A stretch of DNA of 64,000 nucleotides, taken from Dialister pneumosintes. Its GTDB lineage: Bacteria > Bacillota > Negativicutes > Veillonellales > Dialisteraceae. Within the stretch, counting starts at the first letter, position 1, and each line of letters starts with the position of its first letter. The notes below the pieces were generated by a model. It had not been told where the DNA came from. It did not search any database and worked only from the letters and a program-made list of their open reading frames with translations. The stretch spans positions 721,001 to 785,000 of the forward strand of contig NZ_CP017037.1 in the NCBI RefSeq assembly GCF_001717505.1, written 5' to 3'. Shown here piece after piece: positions 15,306-53,048 of the stretch. The translations under genes and the position numbers were made by a program.

Positions 15306-15382
15306 GGCCCGGTGGTGTAGTGGTCTAACATGTCGCCCTGTCACGGCGAAGATCGTCAGTTCAAATCTGATCCGGGTCGCCA
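15306..15382 (+). tRNA. tRNA-Asp (GTC)
   Basis: A complete cloverleaf of 77 nt with encoded CCA. Acceptor stem GGCCCGG/CCGGGTC; the anticodon loop CTGTCAC gives GTC. First of five tRNAs. Confidence 0.97.
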
Positions 15383-15385
15383 TTT

Positions 15386-15460
<75 letters not shown>

Positions 15461-15465
15461 TACGA

Positions 15466-15539
<74 letters not shown>

Positions 15540-15567
15540 TCTATTAATGAATTTGTTAATCACGTAT

Positions 15568-15642
15568 GGCGGCATAGCCAAGTGGTAAGGCGAAGATCCG
15601 CAAGATCTTGACCCCCTAGTTCAAATCTGGGTGCCGCCTCCA
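15568..15642 (+). tRNA. Second tRNA-Cys-like gene (GCA) with atypical anticodon loop
   Basis: Shares the acceptor stem, D-arm and U73 discriminator of the preceding tRNA-Cys, with encoded CCA (75 nt). The anticodon arm differs: stem AAGAT/ATCTT and loop CCGCAAG. Position 33, almost always U in elongator tRNAs, is C. C32 and G38 can pair and shrink the loop to five bases. The variable loop is one base longer. It could be a specialised isoacceptor, a tRNA with a non-decoding role, or a decaying duplicate. The stems are intact, which argues against simple decay. Confidence 0.8.
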
Positions 15643-15659
15643 CTTTATCAAATTCACAT

Positions 15660-15748
15660 GCCGGGGTGGCGGAACTGGCAGACGCAAGGGACTTAAAATC
15701 CCTCGAATCGAGAGATTCGTACCGGTTCGATTCCGGTCCTCGGCACCA
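15660..15748 (+). tRNA. tRNA-Leu (TAA)
   Basis: A complete class II tRNA of 89 nt with a long variable arm (TCGAATCGAGAGATTCG region) and encoded CCA. The anticodon loop CTTAAAA gives TAA. Last gene of the tRNA operon. Confidence 0.97.
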
Positions 15749-41776: not shown

Positions 41777-41850
41777 AACTCATCCGCCTTTTAAGAATTT
41801 TCTCTATTGTAACATGTATATACTAAATAATAGGTATATCACTTACTTTT

Positions 41851-41879
41851 TTGACACCCCCATTTTCTTTTGATACACT
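41851..41879 (+). promoter_or_regulatory. Promoter of the structured RNA gene
   Basis: TTGACA at 41851-41856, 17-bp spacer, TACACT at 41874-41879, on the plus strand. No ORF follows; transcription would begin near 41,885 and end at the terminator near 42,004. Confidence 0.78.
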
Positions 41880-41885
41880 AAAATT

Positions 41886-42006
41886 GCCGGATGAGTAGAG
41901 CTGAGTATCCAGCGTTGAAACCCTAGCACCGGATGCTGGTCGAGGATACTCTGACAGTCCAGCTCTGATATTATCGCCGATATCTCTACGATATCGACTT
42001 TTTTAT
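41886..42006 (+). ncRNA. Unassigned structured small RNA (about 120 nt)
   Basis: A free-standing transcript bounded by a near-consensus promoter and an intrinsic terminator, with no coding potential. Seen by eye: stem P1 (41897-41903 with 41960-41966, AGAGCTG/CAGCTCT) stacked on P2 (41904-41910 with 41944-41950, AGTATCC/GGATACT), with a 9-nt bulge at 41951-41959. Inside is hairpin P3 (41923-41928 with 41934-41939) capped by CCGGA. The P3 loop CCGG can pair with CCGG at 41887-41890, a possible pseudoknot. The terminator is CGATATC/GATATCG at 41978-41996 then T6. I could not match it to SRP RNA, 6S, tmRNA, RNase P or a riboswitch class that I know. Confidence 0.75.
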
Positions 42007-42026
42007 TTCCCATTTTCATTCCATTA

Positions 42027-42056
42027 AAAAAGCAGAGAAAATTTTCTCTGCTTTTT
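42027..42056 (-). terminator. Rho-independent terminator of pepD
   Basis: A perfect 30-bp palindrome AAAAAGCAGAGAAAA plus its complement, 8 bp after the dipeptidase stop codon. Confidence 0.88.
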
Positions 42057-44420: not shown

Positions 44421-47400
44421 TTAAATTCCTATAAATACCTCTACGATTCTCTTTATCTTTTCTAACACCGATTCTTTCTTTTTCTCTCTTGCGCCTTGTC
44501 TACGGGAGGTTGGTGGAATGATTTGGTCCAATTCATCACCGGCATACTCTACATACCCTTTATTAATAGCTCTATTAATAAAGCGCTTAGAAATTTCTTT
44601 TAATCTTTCATCCTCTACCAATTTATTAACCGTATTCTCTTTTTCTTTCTTTGCAAAGCTGTAGAAAGATTCCAGAATATCATCGGTATTCTTTAATTCT
44701 GAAAGATTCGTTTGGTTTATAAAATCGATAACCAACTCTTCTTTAGCCCTAGTTCCTAAACTGGATCTAATAACTCTACGAACTTCAGCTTTTAAACTTT
44801 CTATATCATTATGTTCTTTCGATTTGTCTAAAATTAAAGCCAAAATATAATCTAAGTTGATTTCGTCTGTTTTTAACAAATCAATTTGAAATTCAATATC
44901 AGAAAAATCCACCTGTTCCTCATCCGATACTGATTGGCACTGTGATAATAAAACTCTTTCTCTAATATCTACGTATACGCTCTTCATATCTTGCATTTGT
45001 CTTTCAGATATAATTGTCTCAAAGCTTTCAAATTCATCAAAGTTTTTAAGAACATTTTCCGCTTTTAACAATTCACCAAAAAGCTCTGCAAATTCTTTTT
45101 TCTCTGAATCAAGAATAATACTTGTCGGATCCGGGAATTTACAAATAATTTCATTACACAAATCTTTATACCCTTTAACAAACCTACCTGTTTCTTCATC
45201 TTTAAAACCTTCGATGTATTCAGAATAACTCTTTTCTAAAATAACATTTACACTGTTTTCATCACCAAAAGTTTTAATAGCGTCTTCTGTTGCTTGTTGT
45301 AAATCTCTGAAACAAACAATATTCCCAAATGCCTTTACCTTATTCAAAATACGATTAGTTCTTGAAAATGCTTGAATCAATCCATGATATCTAAGATTTT
45401 TATCTACAAATAAGGTATTCAAAGTAGGTGCATCAAATCCGGTTAAGAACATACCTACCACAATCAGTAAATCAACTTCTTTATTTTTTACTCTTTGTGA
45501 TAAATCTTTATAGTAATTTTGAAATTCATTCCCTTGTGTTGAATAATTTGTTTGGAAAGACTGATTATAGTTGGAAATCACCTTATCTAAAAATTCTTTT
45601 GCAGAAGAATTCATAGCACTTACATCAAAATTTTCTTCTGATATTTCACCAATAGCGGTTTGTTCTTCATTCGGCGCAAAACTATAAATAGTCGTAACTT
45701 TTAATCTCTTTTCCTTTGGTAATTCTGCTTGCTGTTTTTCGAACTCTTCATAATACGATTTAGCCGCTTCTACACTCTGAACAGCAAACATAGCATTAAA
45801 CCCGTTCAATCTACGTTCTTTTACATTATAAAATTCATTTCTATGTGTTTTAGTGTTAAAAATAGTTAATATATGCTTTGTAATTTCAGCAATGCGTTCC
45901 GGATGAAGCAATAGTTTTTTCTCAAGCTTTGCTAATTTTTTGTCATCCTTTTCTTTTTCTGCAGACTTGGAAAATGGTGTAATGTTGTTATAATCCACCT
46001 TAAATTTCAAAACCTTACCATCTCGTATAGCATCTGTAATAACATAACTATGTAACTGCGCTCCGAATATACCTGCTGTCGTATCCCCACCAATTGAATT
46101 CTCCGGAAAAATCGGAGTCCCCGTAAACCCAAATTGATAATATTTATTGAATGCTTTTCTAATATTCTTCTGTGCATCTCCAAACTGAGAACGATGACAT
46201 TCATCAAATATAAGAACACAATGCTTATCATAAATTTCATGAACAGGATTTTTCTTTACAAATTCATTTAATTTTTGAATGGTAGTAACGATAATTCTAT
46301 CATCATCCTTTTCAATACTTCTTTTCAATTCTTTGGTATCTTTACTTCCATTGACACTATTTTCTTGAAACTTTTGATATTCTTTCATTGTTTGATAGTC
46401 TAAATCTTTCCTATCTACAACAAAAAACACTTTATCAATAAAATCTAATGCGGTTGCAAGTCTTGCGGTCTTAAAAGAAGTTAATGTTTTCCCTGAACCG
46501 GTCGTATGCCAAATAAATCCCCCTGCCCCCGTAGTTCCTGCTCTTTTATTTTCATAACTGGACTTTATTTTCCATAAAATACGTTCTGTTGCTGCAATTT
46601 GATAAGGTCTCATAACAAGTAATGTATTATTGCAATCAAAAATACAATACTTGGTTAATACCTCAAGCAATACACGTTTCTCGAAAAATGTTCTTGTAAA
46701 GTCTTCCAAATCTCGAATAACCTGATTTCTAGCATCTGCCCATTCACAAGTAAATTCATAATTATTTTTATTTTGTGCTGTTGTATTAGCAAAATACCGT
46801 GTATATGTACCATTAGAAATAACAAAAATTTGTACATACTTATATAAAGAATTTTCTATATTAAAACTCTCTTTACTATATCTATGAATCTGATTAAACG
46901 CTTCATGCAGATTTACGCCACGTTTCTTTAACTCAATATGAACCAAAGGTAACCCATTCACTAAAACCGTTACATCATAACGATTATGATGACTTCCCGT
47001 TTGTTGAACCTGGTTCGTAACCTGCAAAAAATTATTATGGATATTCTTTTTATCTATGATTTTAATATTTTTTAAATGCCCATCATCAAAAATAAAATCA
47101 TAAATATGATTTTCCTGTACTTTACGAGTTTTTTCTATCATCCCGTCATTAGGCGCATCTAAATATTCCTGAAGAAAACGTCCCCATTCTGCCGAAGTAA
47201 ATTCAACACCATTTAATCGCTCAATCTGTACTTTCAAATTGGCATATAATTCTTCTTGTGAATTAATAACTAGACGCTCATATCCCTGAGAAACTAGATT
47301 TTCTATCATATTTGCTTCCAATTGTGCTTCAGTTTGATAAGAAGTTTCTCCTACATAATTGGATTTTTTGAAGTTTGCCAAAATAATTCCATTAGTCATT

Positions 47401-47438
47401 TCTGCAATAGTTTTATATTCTTGTCTTACTTCTGACAT
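44421..47438 (-). CDS. hsdR: Type I restriction enzyme R subunit
   Basis: The motor-nuclease subunit that translocates and cuts unmethylated DNA. The N-terminal PD-(D/E)xK nuclease has NRYDVTVLVNGLPLVHIELKKRG near residue 180. Walker A is GFIWHTTGSGKTLTS, the DEAD box is VLIFDECHRSQFG, motif III is FTGTPIF and motif VI is QAFSRTNRILN. I start at ATG 47438 (1005 aa) behind AAGGAG. Length and partners fit the type IC (EcoR124/EcoprrI) class. Last gene of the operon, 4 bp after the prrC-like gene. Confidence 0.95.
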   Translation of the reverse strand: MSEVRQEYKTIAEMTNGIILANFKKSNYVGETSYQTEAQLEANMIENLVSQGYERLVINSQEELYANLKVQIERLNGVEFTSAEWGRFLQEYLDAPNDGMIEKTRKVQENHIYDFIFDDGHLKNIKIIDKKNIHNNFLQVTNQVQQTGSHHNRYDVTVLVNGLPLVHIELKKRGVNLHEAFNQIHRYSKESFNIENSLYKYVQIFVISNGTYTRYFANTTAQNKNNYEFTCEWADARNQVIRDLEDFTRTFFEKRVLLEVLTKYCIFDCNNTLLVMRPYQIAATERILWKIKSSYENKRAGTTGAGGFIWHTTGSGKTLTSFKTARLATALDFIDKVFFVVDRKDLDYQTMKEYQKFQENSVNGSKDTKELKRSIEKDDDRIIVTTIQKLNEFVKKNPVHEIYDKHCVLIFDECHRSQFGDAQKNIRKAFNKYYQFGFTGTPIFPENSIGGDTTAGIFGAQLHSYVITDAIRDGKVLKFKVDYNNITPFSKSAEKEKDDKKLAKLEKKLLLHPERIAEITKHILTIFNTKTHRNEFYNVKERRLNGFNAMFAVQSVEAAKSYYEEFEKQQAELPKEKRLKVTTIYSFAPNEEQTAIGEISEENFDVSAMNSSAKEFLDKVISNYNQSFQTNYSTQGNEFQNYYKDLSQRVKNKEVDLLIVVGMFLTGFDAPTLNTLFVDKNLRYHGLIQAFSRTNRILNKVKAFGNIVCFRDLQQATEDAIKTFGDENSVNVILEKSYSEYIEGFKDEETGRFVKGYKDLCNEIICKFPDPTSIILDSEKKEFAELFGELLKAENVLKNFDEFESFETIISERQMQDMKSVYVDIRERVLLSQCQSVSDEEQVDFSDIEFQIDLLKTDEINLDYILALILDKSKEHNDIESLKAEVRRVIRSSLGTRAKEELVIDFINQTNLSELKNTDDILESFYSFAKKEKENTVNKLVEDERLKEISKRFINRAINKGYVEYAGDELDQIIPPTSRRQGAREKKKESVLEKIKRIVEVFIGI

Positions 47439-47442
47439 AGAC

Positions 47443-48528
47443 TTACTCCTTCCATTTATATTCTTTAAGAAATTTTTCAAATATTCTTTTTAGGAATTGT
47501 TTTTCATGAGGTTCCAATATTTTTGCTTCTAAAACAGAATGATTGCTATGACTATATAAATTTATTCGCTTAACATAAGCATCTTTGTCATCTTCATTTA
47601 TTAAATCTTTCCAACTATCATAACCTAAAAAATGTGCTGTTTTTTCTAATAAATTACGCATCAAATTAAAATGATATCGTTTTATCATATTGTTAGCTAT
47701 TGCTTTTTTTATTTCTTTTTTAAGTAACAAATGATATCCAAACGGTGTTTTATTTTCATCCAATTTATCCAAAATATACTTATTACCATCTCTACTCAAC
47801 CACAATTTTTGTGCCTTTTTAAGTTCAGTATGCAAAACATTATAAAATAAAGCATGATGTGTAGACACAATAAAATGCAAATTTTCATTCTCCGAAGAAT
47901 TCATTGTTTCCTTTAATGCTAACGCTATATCAATAGCATGGTTATCATCCAAAGAGGAAATAGGATCATCTATAAAAATATATTGAATAGCATTAAATTC
48001 GTCTGTACTTCTATCACTAATTTCATCAATATTCAGTTCAGCTATAATAGTTTCCATTAAGACAAAAAATACAGCCCAAATAAAAATGCTTTCTTCCCCT
48101 TTTGAAATCTTTATATTATCAACTGCTTCCTTATCTCCGGTCGGTAAGCTAAAAGTAATTTCTCCGGTACTCGTATTGATGTGTGGTTCAATCTTGGACG
48201 AAGTAAATTCTTGGAACTTTTGGGCTATTTGCTTCTCTTTGCCTTGCTCCTCAATCATCCTAATAAAGCTTGAATTTTTATTAATCTTAAGCTTTCTATC
48301 ACTATCATTTTCTAAATCATTATCCCAATAGAATAAATCTTCTGTAAATGCATTGTAATAAATTACATGCTTAATAATTTCGTCTTCTTTATATTCATTA
48401 ACAAGATTTTTAAATTCCATAGATAATCTTGTTTTTCCTGTTGCATTAAAAGCATATAGCAAAGTAACTTTCTTATTGGAACCTCTAATTTTTTGAGCAA
48501 TCTTTTTTAACGAGTTATACTCCTCCAT
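47443..48528 (-). CDS. PrrC-like anticodon nuclease (AAA/ABC ATPase) in the RM operon
   Basis: Probable tRNA anticodon nuclease held in check by the restriction complex. The ABC-ATPase part has Walker A YAFNATGKT (25-33, with Ala replacing the first Gly), signature ISKGEES (141-147), Walker B/D-loop FIDDPISSLD (185-194) and H-loop STHH. The C-terminal domain carries Arg291, Glu295 and His327: spacings of 4 and 36, identical to the Arg320-Glu324-His356 active-site triad reported for E. coli PrrC. 361 aa against about 396 for PrrC. It lies between hsdS2 and hsdR, as prrC lies within its type IC locus. Alternative: another AAA defence ATPase. Confidence 0.75.
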   Translation of the reverse strand: MEEYNSLKKIAQKIRGSNKKVTLLYAFNATGKTRLSMEFKNLVNEYKEDEIIKHVIYYNAFTEDLFYWDNDLENDSDRKLKINKNSSFIRMIEEQGKEKQIAQKFQEFTSSKIEPHINTSTGEITFSLPTGDKEAVDNIKISKGEESIFIWAVFFVLMETIIAELNIDEISDRSTDEFNAIQYIFIDDPISSLDDNHAIDIALALKETMNSSENENLHFIVSTHHALFYNVLHTELKKAQKLWLSRDGNKYILDKLDENKTPFGYHLLLKKEIKKAIANNMIKRYHFNLMRNLLEKTAHFLGYDSWKDLINEDDKDAYVKRINLYSHSNHSVLEAKILEPHEKQFLKRIFEKFLKEYKWKE

Positions 48529-48547
48529 ATTTCCACCTTACCCTAAA

Positions 48548-49144
48548 TTATGTCTTAAAACTCAATAACCTATCTCTATAATATTCGTATTGCTTTTGCC
48601 GTAACTCGATTTCTTTCGGCAAACCTTGCTTGATATCCTTAACCAGTGTTTCAAACTGATCAAGAATTTTTACTACATAATTTTGTACTTTTATTGATGG
48701 GATTGGAATTTCAAGCTCCAAAATCTTATACATATGTGGATGTTTAATCCCAGAACCTCTATAAAAGCTGGCTATCAAATCTATTTTGTTTAATAAACTA
48801 TGATATAAAAACTTATTATTTAATGTCTCAGTATCTAAAGAAGTTGCTATTCTATTATCACCAGTAATAAATTTACCATTGTAGTATTGAATGATTGGAT
48901 TTCCACCCCATGGAATACAAACAATCTCTCCTTCACTAATATTATTCTTTACTCTTTCTTCAATAGCATAAAGTTCAGTTTTATTAGTTGTTAAAACCTT
49001 AATTGTTCCTTTTTCGGAAGACAATTCTTTTAACTCATTAGATAAATAATAGTGATATTTAATAGTTTTATTTTGCTTGAATTTCTCAACTCCATTAAAT
49101 TTTTTATCCCACATTGTGACTTCCCACAATTTCTTCCATTCCAC
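48548..49144 (-). CDS. hsdS: Half-length type I specificity subunit, third recognition domain
   Basis: A single-TRD HsdS unit (198 aa). It begins VEWKKLWEV, parallel to VEWKKLGEV at the start of hsdS1. One target-recognition domain follows, then the conserved helical region ELRQKQYEYYRDRLLSF. The only listed start is GTG with a poor ribosome-binding site. The frame is open upstream through a 20-odd-residue linker into the CTTG tract that ends hsdS1, so this may be a phase-variable extension of hsdS1 rather than an independent gene. If translated alone, half-S proteins of this kind can dimerise. Confidence 0.8.
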   Translation of the reverse strand: MEWKKLWEVTMWDKKFNGVEKFKQNKTIKYHYYLSNELKELSSEKGTIKVLTTNKTELYAIEERVKNNISEGEIVCIPWGGNPIIQYYNGKFITGDNRIATSLDTETLNNKFLYHSLLNKIDLIASFYRGSGIKHPHMYKILELEIPIPSIKVQNYVVKILDQFETLVKDIKQGLPKEIELRQKQYEYYRDRLLSFKT

Positions 49145-49209
49145 TTCAAATAAATTAATCCCAACAATATTTGCTGCTTTTTTGAGAAGTTTAAAATAAC
49201 TATGAGAGA

Positions 49210-50473
<1,264 letters not shown>

Positions 50474-50481
<8 letters not shown>

Positions 50482-51475
50482 TCTTGCCACCTTCTTTTGC
50501 CTTTTTCTCAATGGCTTTTATTTCATTTAAGTAATCTTTTTCTACCTGAGTCAGTGTGTTGTGTTGATATCTTCTATACTCTGTCTGCACTTTTTTATTG
50601 GCTTGTTCTTTCGAAATACTTCCATTTCCAACTAATAACTCTTCTCCAGTAATACTTAATACTTTATCTGTATATTGCAGCCAATCATTCATCGTCATGA
50701 CAATTTGTTTTTGTGCTTGTCTTTCTGCAAACTCAAGAAACCCCGAAACTAAGGTATTTAAACTCTTCAATTCCTTTTCACTCAAATAATTCTTGGCAGT
50801 TTTAGCCTCTTTTAAAGTTGGTAATTCTCCTTGAAATACGGTAAGCCCCATAAATTCTTTAGCTGAATCCACACGTTCGTAAATCAGTTCACTGGCTGTA
50901 TGATGATGAATAGCAAAATGCATTTTATTTTGAATCGTTGCAAAAAATAATTTTGCATCATCACTATGAGAACAATAGTCTATGCTAGTAGCAAATAAAT
51001 CTAAGACTTGACGATAAAAAACTTTCTCACTAGAACGAATATCTCGAATTCTGTCTAAAAGTTCTTTAAAATAACTGCTTACACCAAGATTTTTCAGTCT
51101 ATTATCATCTATAGCAAATCCTTTGATTAAGTATTCTTTTAATATAGTGGAAGCATAATTTCTAAATTGAATACCACGAGGAGAACGAACTCGATATCCA
51201 ATTGCCAAAATCATATCCAGAGAATAATAAGCTATATTACGAGAAATATTTCGCCCACCTTCATTTTGAACTGTCAACTTATAGTTGACAGTTGACTCCT
51301 CATCCAATTCTCCATCCTCAAGAATAGCTTTAATATGTTTACTGATATTCTGTTTGCTCGTTTGAAACAACTCTGCCATCTCAAGTTGGTTTAGCCAAAC
51401 AGTTTCATTTTCTACATGAAGTTCAATTTTAGCTTTTCCATCTTCTGTATTATATAAAATAATATTATTCTTCAT
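50474..51475 (-). CDS. RhuM family protein in the RM operon
   Basis: A 333-aa RhuM (virulence_RhuM) family protein, named after a Salmonella pathogenicity-island gene; its biochemical role is unknown. The N-terminal segment [21 protein letters not shown] looks like a DNA-binding helix-turn-helix. [20 protein letters not shown] and [17 protein letters not shown] are family-specific. The start is ATG 51475 behind GGAG, overlapping the hsdM stop; its own stop overlaps hsdS1. It is embedded in the operon by overlaps on both sides, which implies co-regulation with the RM system. Confidence 0.88.
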
Positions 51476-53048
51476 TTTCAAGCTCCTTTACAATTTCATT
51501 GATAGAAGCTCTTAATTCATCAATTTTACTTACAGTTTCTTCAATCTGTTTATTTAATACTTTTATATCAATTTTTTCTCTCGTATCTTCCTTCTCTATA
51601 TAGGTAGATACGGAAAGATTGTAATCATTTTCTTCTATTTCAGATAACTCTACATATCTTGAAAAATATTTTGTATCTTTTCTATTTCTAAATGCATGAA
51701 GTATGGCTTCAATATTCTTTTCTTCTAAGATGTTATTATTCGTTTCTTTCTTAAATTCTTTACTTGCATCAATAAATAGAATTTTATTTTCTGTTTTATT
51801 TTTAGCCATTACTAAAACACAAGTAGCAATAGAAGTTCCATAAAATAAATTTTCCGGAAGTTGAATCACACAATCGATAAAGTTATTATCTACTAGATAT
51901 TTACGAATTGTTTTTTCTGCACCTCGACGATAAAAAATTCCAGGGAAACAAACAATAGCAGCACGCCCTTTACTCGAAAGATAGCTTAAAGAGTGCATAA
52001 TAAAAGCATAATCAGCATAAGATTTTGGTGCGAGTTTCCCCGCCGGAGCAAAACGTTCATCATTAATTAAAGTAGGATCAGCATCCCCAATCCATTTAAT
52101 AGAGTAAGGAGGATTAGAAACAATAGCATCAAACGGTTTTTCTTCTCCATGTCTCGGATGTAATAAGGTATCCCCTCGCTCGATAGAAAAATGATTGTAA
52201 TTAACATTATGTAAGAACATATTCATACGAGCTAAGTTGAAATTCGTCATATTGATTTCTTGCCCATAGAATCCTTCATCAATGATATGTTCATCAAACT
52301 GTTTTTTCATTTGCAAAAGTAACGAACCGCTTCCACAAGTCGGGTCATATACTTTATTAATTTTGTCTTTTCCATCCATAACTAAACGAGATAATAGTTT
52401 AGATACAGTTTGTGGCGTAAAAAATTCCCCACCGGATTTACCGGCATTACTTGCATAATTCGATATCAAATATTCATAAGCATCCCCGAATGCATCAATA
52501 TCATTATCTTTAAAATTGCCAAAGTTAATGCCGGCTATCCCTGTCAATATATCTACGAGCCTCTTATTTTTCTCCGGTACACTTCCACCAAGACGATTAC
52601 TGGTTGTATCCACATCATCAAATAATCCTTTAATATCTTCTTCTGAAGCAGATCCTACGGCACTTCCTTCGATGGCTTTGAAAATATTAGTTAAGTCAAT
52701 ATTTAAATTTTCATTAGTTTTTGCATTTTTCACTACATTCTCAAATAACTGGCTCGGTAAAATAAAAAAACCTTTATCTTCTACTGTACCGGGTCTAAAG
52801 TCTTTTTCTGCTTCTTCATCACTTAAATCGGCATAATTAAACTCTAAATCCCCCACCTCATGTTCTGCTGCATTAAAAAATTCTGTTATATTTTCAGAAA
52901 TAAACCGATAAAAAAGTATACCTAAAATATATTGCTTAAAATCCCATCCATCAACGGCGCCTCGAACATCATCGGCAATCGCCCATATTTTACGATGTAA
53001 TTCTGCTCTCTGTGCTGCTCCATTAGATTCACCGGTATAATTGCTCAT
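51465..53048 (-). CDS. hsdM: Type I restriction-modification DNA methyltransferase M subunit
   Basis: N6-adenine methyltransferase subunit (527 aa). The N-terminal HsdM helical domain has [24 protein letters not shown]-binding motif I is [15 protein letters not shown]; catalytic motif IV is [15 protein letters not shown]-terminal coiled-coil contacts HsdS. RBS CAGGAG. First gene of the operon hsdM-rhuM-hsdS1-hsdS2-prrC-hsdR. Confidence 0.96.

Follow-up and report, generated by a model that had tools for sequence, protein, structure and literature searches.

Prophages encode structured RNAs of unexplained function, such as ROOL and GOLLD, in which kissing loops are conserved (PMC12286853). Here, we describe a predicted non-coding RNA (ncRNA) of ~120 nucleotides (nt), located at 41886-42005 on the forward strand of a 64,000-nt stretch of the Dialister pneumosintes genome (contig NZ_CP017037.1, positions 721,001 to 785,000; hereafter, the window). 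It is defined by covariance-model matches and covariation, and has a conserved structured core of ~93 nt (41884-41976), after which a terminator follows. ROOL and GOLLD measure several hundred nt, form nanocages and have their own Rfam models, whereas the ~93-nt RNA described here is unrelated in fold and matches no Rfam model. The packaging RNA (pRNA) of phi29 is phage-linked, ~120 nt long and pairs between molecules through complementary loops carried on a three-way junction. The RNA in the window resembles it in phage link, size and complementary loops but consists of two side-by-side hairpins, and since many of its copies lie outside phages, packaging cannot be its general role. Kissing loops also occur in the purine and lysine riboswitch aptamers, and the SAM-I riboswitch combines a kink-turn (k-turn) with a pseudoknot. 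These aptamers share with our RNA a 6-base-pair (bp) loop-loop contact or k-turn-assisted side-by-side helices; however, it lacks a controlled downstream gene and a junction ligand pocket, and each copy has its own promoter and terminator. For the same bacterial group, a 2021 survey covering Veillonella reported the gltD, ldh2, ilvD and potE motifs upstream of particular genes (PMC8632094), and their descriptions set them apart from this standalone RNA.

The original prediction, made from the window's sequence, had labeled the unit an orphan structured RNA with promoter, pseudoknot and terminator that could not be placed in a known class. The overall label holds, and no family among the 4227 models of Rfam 15 reached its gathering cut-off in the window or at 12 homologue loci. 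The best sub-threshold match (22.6 bits versus a cut-off of 52) lay on the flanking terminator, and permissive settings returned only weak matches to this A+T-rich flanking region. Searches of openly licensed papers found no description of the RNA, although it may be described elsewhere. The RNA family is uncatalogued. Comparative sequence evidence makes it likely (a probability of roughly 0.7) that it is a new family of small standalone ncRNAs of mobile elements, which would act in trans through their folded shape, with a host protein as partner and a benefit in phage-host conflict.

Conserved two-hairpin fold and predicted transcription unit

Homologues were searched for with blastn and then with covariance models R1, R2 and R3, of which R1 was built from 12 aligned sequences and the other two were enlarged with newly found members; the fold was scored on an alignment (A6) of 20 sequences. 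The conserved fold comprises hairpin 1 (S1, S2, k-turn and S3) and hairpin 2 (S4 and S5), which are joined by a 2-nt linker and carry fully complementary 6-nt loops. S1, the basal stem of hairpin 1, pairs CCGG at 41887-41890 with CCGG at 41929-41932. It is paired in 98.8% of alignment cells, shows both-side changes at 3/4 pairs (pair types CG/UA, GC/AU/CG and GC/AU/GU), and is re-paired in relatives as CUAG:CUAG, CCCG:CGGG and CCAA:UUGG. CCGGATG does occur twice in the window, at 41887 and 41929, as had been pointed out, and the proposed pairing of a CCGG loop with the 5' CCGG proved to be the best-supported part of the earlier model. S3 (GCUG at 41900-41903 with CAGC at 41910-41913) is paired in 97.5% of cells with both-side changes at 3/4 pairs, and S4 (GCUGG at 41935-41939 with CCAGC at 41959-41963) in 96% with both-side changes at 4/5 pairs. 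S2 (GAGU at 41893-41896 with ACCC at 41920-41923) is weak in the window copy, which has one A.C mismatch, but forms a full stem in most relatives; support for S5 is poor.

Loop 1 (AGUAUC, 41904-41909) kisses loop 2 (GAUACU, 41945-41950), with 97.5% of cells paired and both-side changes in some member at 6/6 pairs. The loops are re-paired in many lineages, giving the combinations AGUAUC:GAUACU, AGCGUC:GACGCU, AAUAUC:GAUAUU, GGCAUU:AAUGCC, GGCACU:AGUGCC, AGCAUC:GAUGCU, GAUAUU:AAUAUC and GGUAUU:AAUACC. Across the whole fold, 87.6% of cells are paired and 21/28 pairs show both-side changes. Double-change cells number 105, compared with 31.6 in shuffles (0/500 as high) and 13-18 when the fold is slid along the alignment, and the covariation score is 0.563, whereas shuffles give 0.217 and slid folds no more than 0.119. 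Conserved, covarying helices, which the original prediction had suggested looking for in relatives, are therefore present. The nested helices were part of the model used to fit A6, so the fit works in their favour; the kissing pairs were absent from that model throughout, and their support does not depend on the fit.

Between S2 and S3 lies what we take to be a k-turn, a label given by applying general sequence rules to this RNA, with S2 as the non-canonical (NC) stem and S3 as the canonical (C) stem. In the window copy, the non-bulged strand is AGA at 41897-41899 (3n, G2n and A1n), and the bulged strand at 41914-41919 consists of a GUU bulge followed by G1b, A2b and 3b. The signature, a 3-nt bulge with exact tandem G.A/A.G pairs between S2 and S3, is found in 14/20 copies, including that of the window, and 3b.3n is mostly A.G; L037, the weakest member, is among the copies that depart from it. 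On the 3' side of hairpin 2, GACAG (41953-41957) is largely unpaired, and GAC.G is conserved family-wide in the 20-member alignment. Except for this motif and the k-turn G.A pairs, unpaired positions vary.

The whole unit of promoter, core and terminator spans 41851-42005 in the window. The noted -35/-10 pair is present at 41851-41879 (forward strand), where TTGACA (41851-41856) and TACACT (41874-41879) are separated by a 17-nt spacer; this sigma-70-type promoter has 10/12 consensus matches and a TG ahead of the -10, and its spacing places the predicted transcription start at G41886. In each of the 20 members, a promoter-like pair is found with its -10 ending at an identical distance from the RNA (mean 9.5/12 matches; 19/20 score at least 9, versus 6% of shuffled upstreams), and the predicted start is a purine 1 nt ahead of S1. 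The terminator was likewise correctly recognized: a 7-bp stem, CGATATC/GATATCG (41978-41996), precedes a T run within 41978-42005, and a terminator-like hairpin with T run, judged by eye, lies 3' of most homologues. The pairing model, with its kissing loop, k-turn and fixed start site, is strong enough for direct tests. The statement that the unit holds no open reading frame (ORF) was literally untrue, given that a 58-amino-acid (aa) ORF on the minus strand (41843-42019) spans the RNA, but its coding status has no support and there is no sign of coding.

Distribution and mobile contexts

Across the order, blastn detected clear homologues in two other families, including tandem copies in genome G020, and when 380 genomes of the class, taken from gene content to be the Negativicutes, were searched with R1, 13 were positive and further families were added. 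With R2 and R3, the final set comprises 20 copies in 15/380 class genomes from at least four taxonomic families. Among 398 genomes drawn from across the phylum, the covariance search had a single positive, the window's own genome (1.27 Mb, one contig), which has one RNA copy. One sister genome of the same genus (G001) lacks the RNA and does not keep the synteny of rsuA and pepD, the flanking genes, both of which lie on the minus strand in the window. Three candidates were rejected. L005, a pattern match on a Bacteriovoracaceae contig, is a chance match in a GC-rich stretch spanned by overlapping frames, with no similar structure, and the weak blastn matches L013 and L014 are non-members that R1 fails to recover at E-values up to 1. 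Searching phage or plasmid collections with three members by blastn gave no credible match, and further pattern searches for viral-contig copies from other lineages found none.

In two IMG/VR contigs (L035 and L038) and three genomes (L043-L045), the RNA lies antisense within a 1,771-aa phage gene that adjoins a GH25-type lysozyme gene, and in G278 (L050) it overlaps the start of a phage-type ORF with a ddrB-ParB domain. Where the RNA overlaps the three phage genes, 83% of identical amino acids are encoded by identical codons, compared with a mean of 66% elsewhere (standard deviation 8%); 21/1652 other stretches of these genes are equally high and form two blocks, one of which covers the terminator side of the RNA. 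A second block of high synonymous conservation in the phage gene of L043, L044 and L045, at codons ~390-430, exceeds that over the RNA and may be another overlapping element. In G054, the RNA is kept with a mere 162 bp of the 1,771-aa gene around it. No empty site for the phage insertion was found, the gene being seen only in RNA-bearing copies and as this 162-bp remnant. Outside phages, the RNA is carried in G163 by a plasmid-like 11.3-kb contig with a parA-like gene, and G020 harbors five copies that form two clusters separated by 6 kb (L012 1501-1935 and L016 1501-1762), in which each tandem copy has its own promoter and three distinct loop pairs are each self-matched. One G020 cluster is closely preceded by a transposase-like remnant. 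Two genomes of one genus share a similar stretch downstream of the RNA (L047 8203-8574 and L048 8515-8937), whose ORF text reads ...SDCCW.GLTHAEV....

The surroundings of chromosomal copies were scanned for defence genes with PADLOC and Pfam. L042 has a type II restriction endonuclease (REase) with a MutH domain and a C5 methylase, and L046 likewise by ORF similarity; L048 has an EcoRII-type REase, a methylase and Vsr, and L052 a type IIG enzyme 170 nt downstream of the RNA. IetA/IetS are found at L040, an SspH/HerA-like protein at L053 and a Fic protein at L027, and HsdR lies near the RNA in the window. A defence gene (E < 1e-25) occurs within 4 kb in 6/8 copy regions, compared with 1/18 random 8-kb regions of the same genomes (one-sided Fisher p 0.0008), where hits were assigned to regions by hand, a housekeeping PcrA hit was excluded by hand, and a TnpB-like Cas12f match was not counted as defence. 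Also left out of the count was a CRISPR (clustered regularly interspaced short palindromic repeat)-like array in G054 (L041 3512-7666; 67-nt period, more than 37 units), which ends ~150 bp before the RNA copy. Collectively, the sporadic occurrence in prophages, a plasmid-like contig, a tandem array and defence-rich sites shows an RNA that moves horizontally.

Interpretation and alternative explanations

In the mechanism we propose, the k-turn would bend hairpin 1 so that loops 1 and 2 kiss within one molecule, and the RNA would act in trans through its three-dimensional shape rather than by pairing to a fixed target, for which the free drift of helix sequences under retention of the shape argues. 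A host protein would be the most likely partner, and the k-turn-binding proteins of the L7Ae family (YlxQ/YbxF type), whose genes are present in 15/15 carrier genomes, are the first candidates. The RNA may be retained for a benefit to the element or the host in phage-host conflict. More specifically, and only tentatively, we suggest that prophages and defence islands carry the RNA as a standalone cargo. By attaching to a protein of the host, it would modulate host defence or superinfection, although no partner protein is encoded next to it. As a recurrent neighbour of restriction systems, ietAS and a CRISPR array, this ~93-nt RNA would make the role of standalone prophage RNAs such as ROOL and GOLLD far easier to approach.

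Several observations weigh against this interpretation. Five tandem-array copies lack the k-turn G.A pairs and have Watson-Crick G-C pairs instead, and L7Ae proteins are so widespread in Bacillota that finding them in carriers proves nothing. One random region also gave a defence hit, a weak mads_3 match, and the nearness of defence genes may stem from common island hotspots and not from a common function. Moreover, by nearest-neighbour energies, a nested fold other than the conserved one is preferred in every member. For the window copy, the nested helices of the conserved fold amount to -11.9 kcal/mol, versus -30.4 kcal/mol for the best nested alternative, a gap of ~18 kcal/mol before the kissing pairs, for which a naive kissing-duplex term adds -4.5 kcal/mol; this energy model gives zero credit to tertiary contacts.

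An alternative scenario, which we regard as rather unlikely, is that the loops kiss between molecules and form homo-dimers or rings, as in the phi29 packaging RNA, ROOL and GOLLD. Covariation cannot separate intramolecular from intermolecular pairing, several copies are prophage-borne, and ROOL and GOLLD are themselves prophage-encoded with conserved intermolecular kissing loops (PMC12286853). However, the k-turn and the 2-nt linker suit a fold-back within one molecule, as do the differing but self-matched loop pairs of the G020 tandem copies, although homo-oligomers could show the same.

It is improbable that the conserved shape is the long bulged hairpin of the original prediction (7+7 bp plus an inner hairpin), or that the RNA switches between both folds. 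The complementary segments are present in the window (AGAGCTG/CAGCTCT, AGTATCC/GGATACT, and CTAGCA/TGCTGG flanking CCGG), and energy prediction ranks the long hairpin first in this copy. Folding of 41884-42006 gives -39.9 kcal/mol versus a shuffle mean of -28.9 kcal/mol (z -2.8), better than 199/200 dinucleotide shuffles, and the pairing of loop 1 with loop 2 is common to both folds. Nevertheless, relatives retain the outer stem in only 66% of cells and the inner 6-bp hairpin in only 65%, and the helices specific to the long hairpin have 9 pairs with both-side changes versus 8.1 in shuffles, whereas 96-99% of cells are paired in S1, S3 and S4, helices that are incompatible with this hairpin. 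The nested 7+7-bp stems can thus form in the window sequence but are not the conserved fold, and the segments of the second 7-bp stem are conserved as the kissing loop rather than as a stem. Covariation was preferred over energies in choosing the two-hairpin fold. The case shows that the lowest-energy fold of a single sequence can mislead and that comparison corrects it.

Similarly improbable is a base-pairing regulatory small RNA (sRNA) whose loops target messenger RNAs or phage RNAs. The standalone transcript unit with terminator, the multiple copies in some genomes and the exposed hexamer loops would suit such a regulator, but the loops co-vary with each other and not toward a fixed target, and the 20-member alignment contains no long conserved single-stranded seed. 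Among the three guesses first offered, a standalone ncRNA (sRNA) fits, whereas a riboswitch remnant and a ribozyme are at odds with the contexts and the conservation pattern. An orphan riboswitch (aptamer plus terminator) or its remnant is very unlikely, despite a compact fold that resembles an aptamer, contains a k-turn and kissing loops and has a terminator directly after it. Riboswitches are expected in the 5' untranslated region of a consistent gene set, whereas the contexts here differ and are often convergent or antisense: no downstream gene is consistent, genes are convergent in the window and at L008/L015, the RNA is antisense in phage genes at L043-L045 and L050, tandem copies have their own promoters, and few unpaired positions are conserved. 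A self-cleaving ribozyme, which a small pseudoknotted RNA in mobile elements might bring to mind, is hardly credible given the lack of any Rfam ribozyme match and the variation of unpaired positions other than the k-turn G.A pairs and GAC.G.

Other features of the window

Downstream of the RNA, a perfect 13-bp inverted repeat between A and T runs (42027-42056) probably acts as a terminator in both directions and serves pepD on the minus strand. A type I restriction locus extends over 44421-53048. It includes an HsdS-like protein (49210-50511) ending in about five SKQA repeats (SKQASKQASKQASKQASKQAR), possibly a slippage or phase-variation tract, and an AAA-type ATPase ORF (47443-48528) between the HsdS-like and HsdR ORFs. 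In addition, a cluster of five transfer RNA genes is located at 15306-15745.
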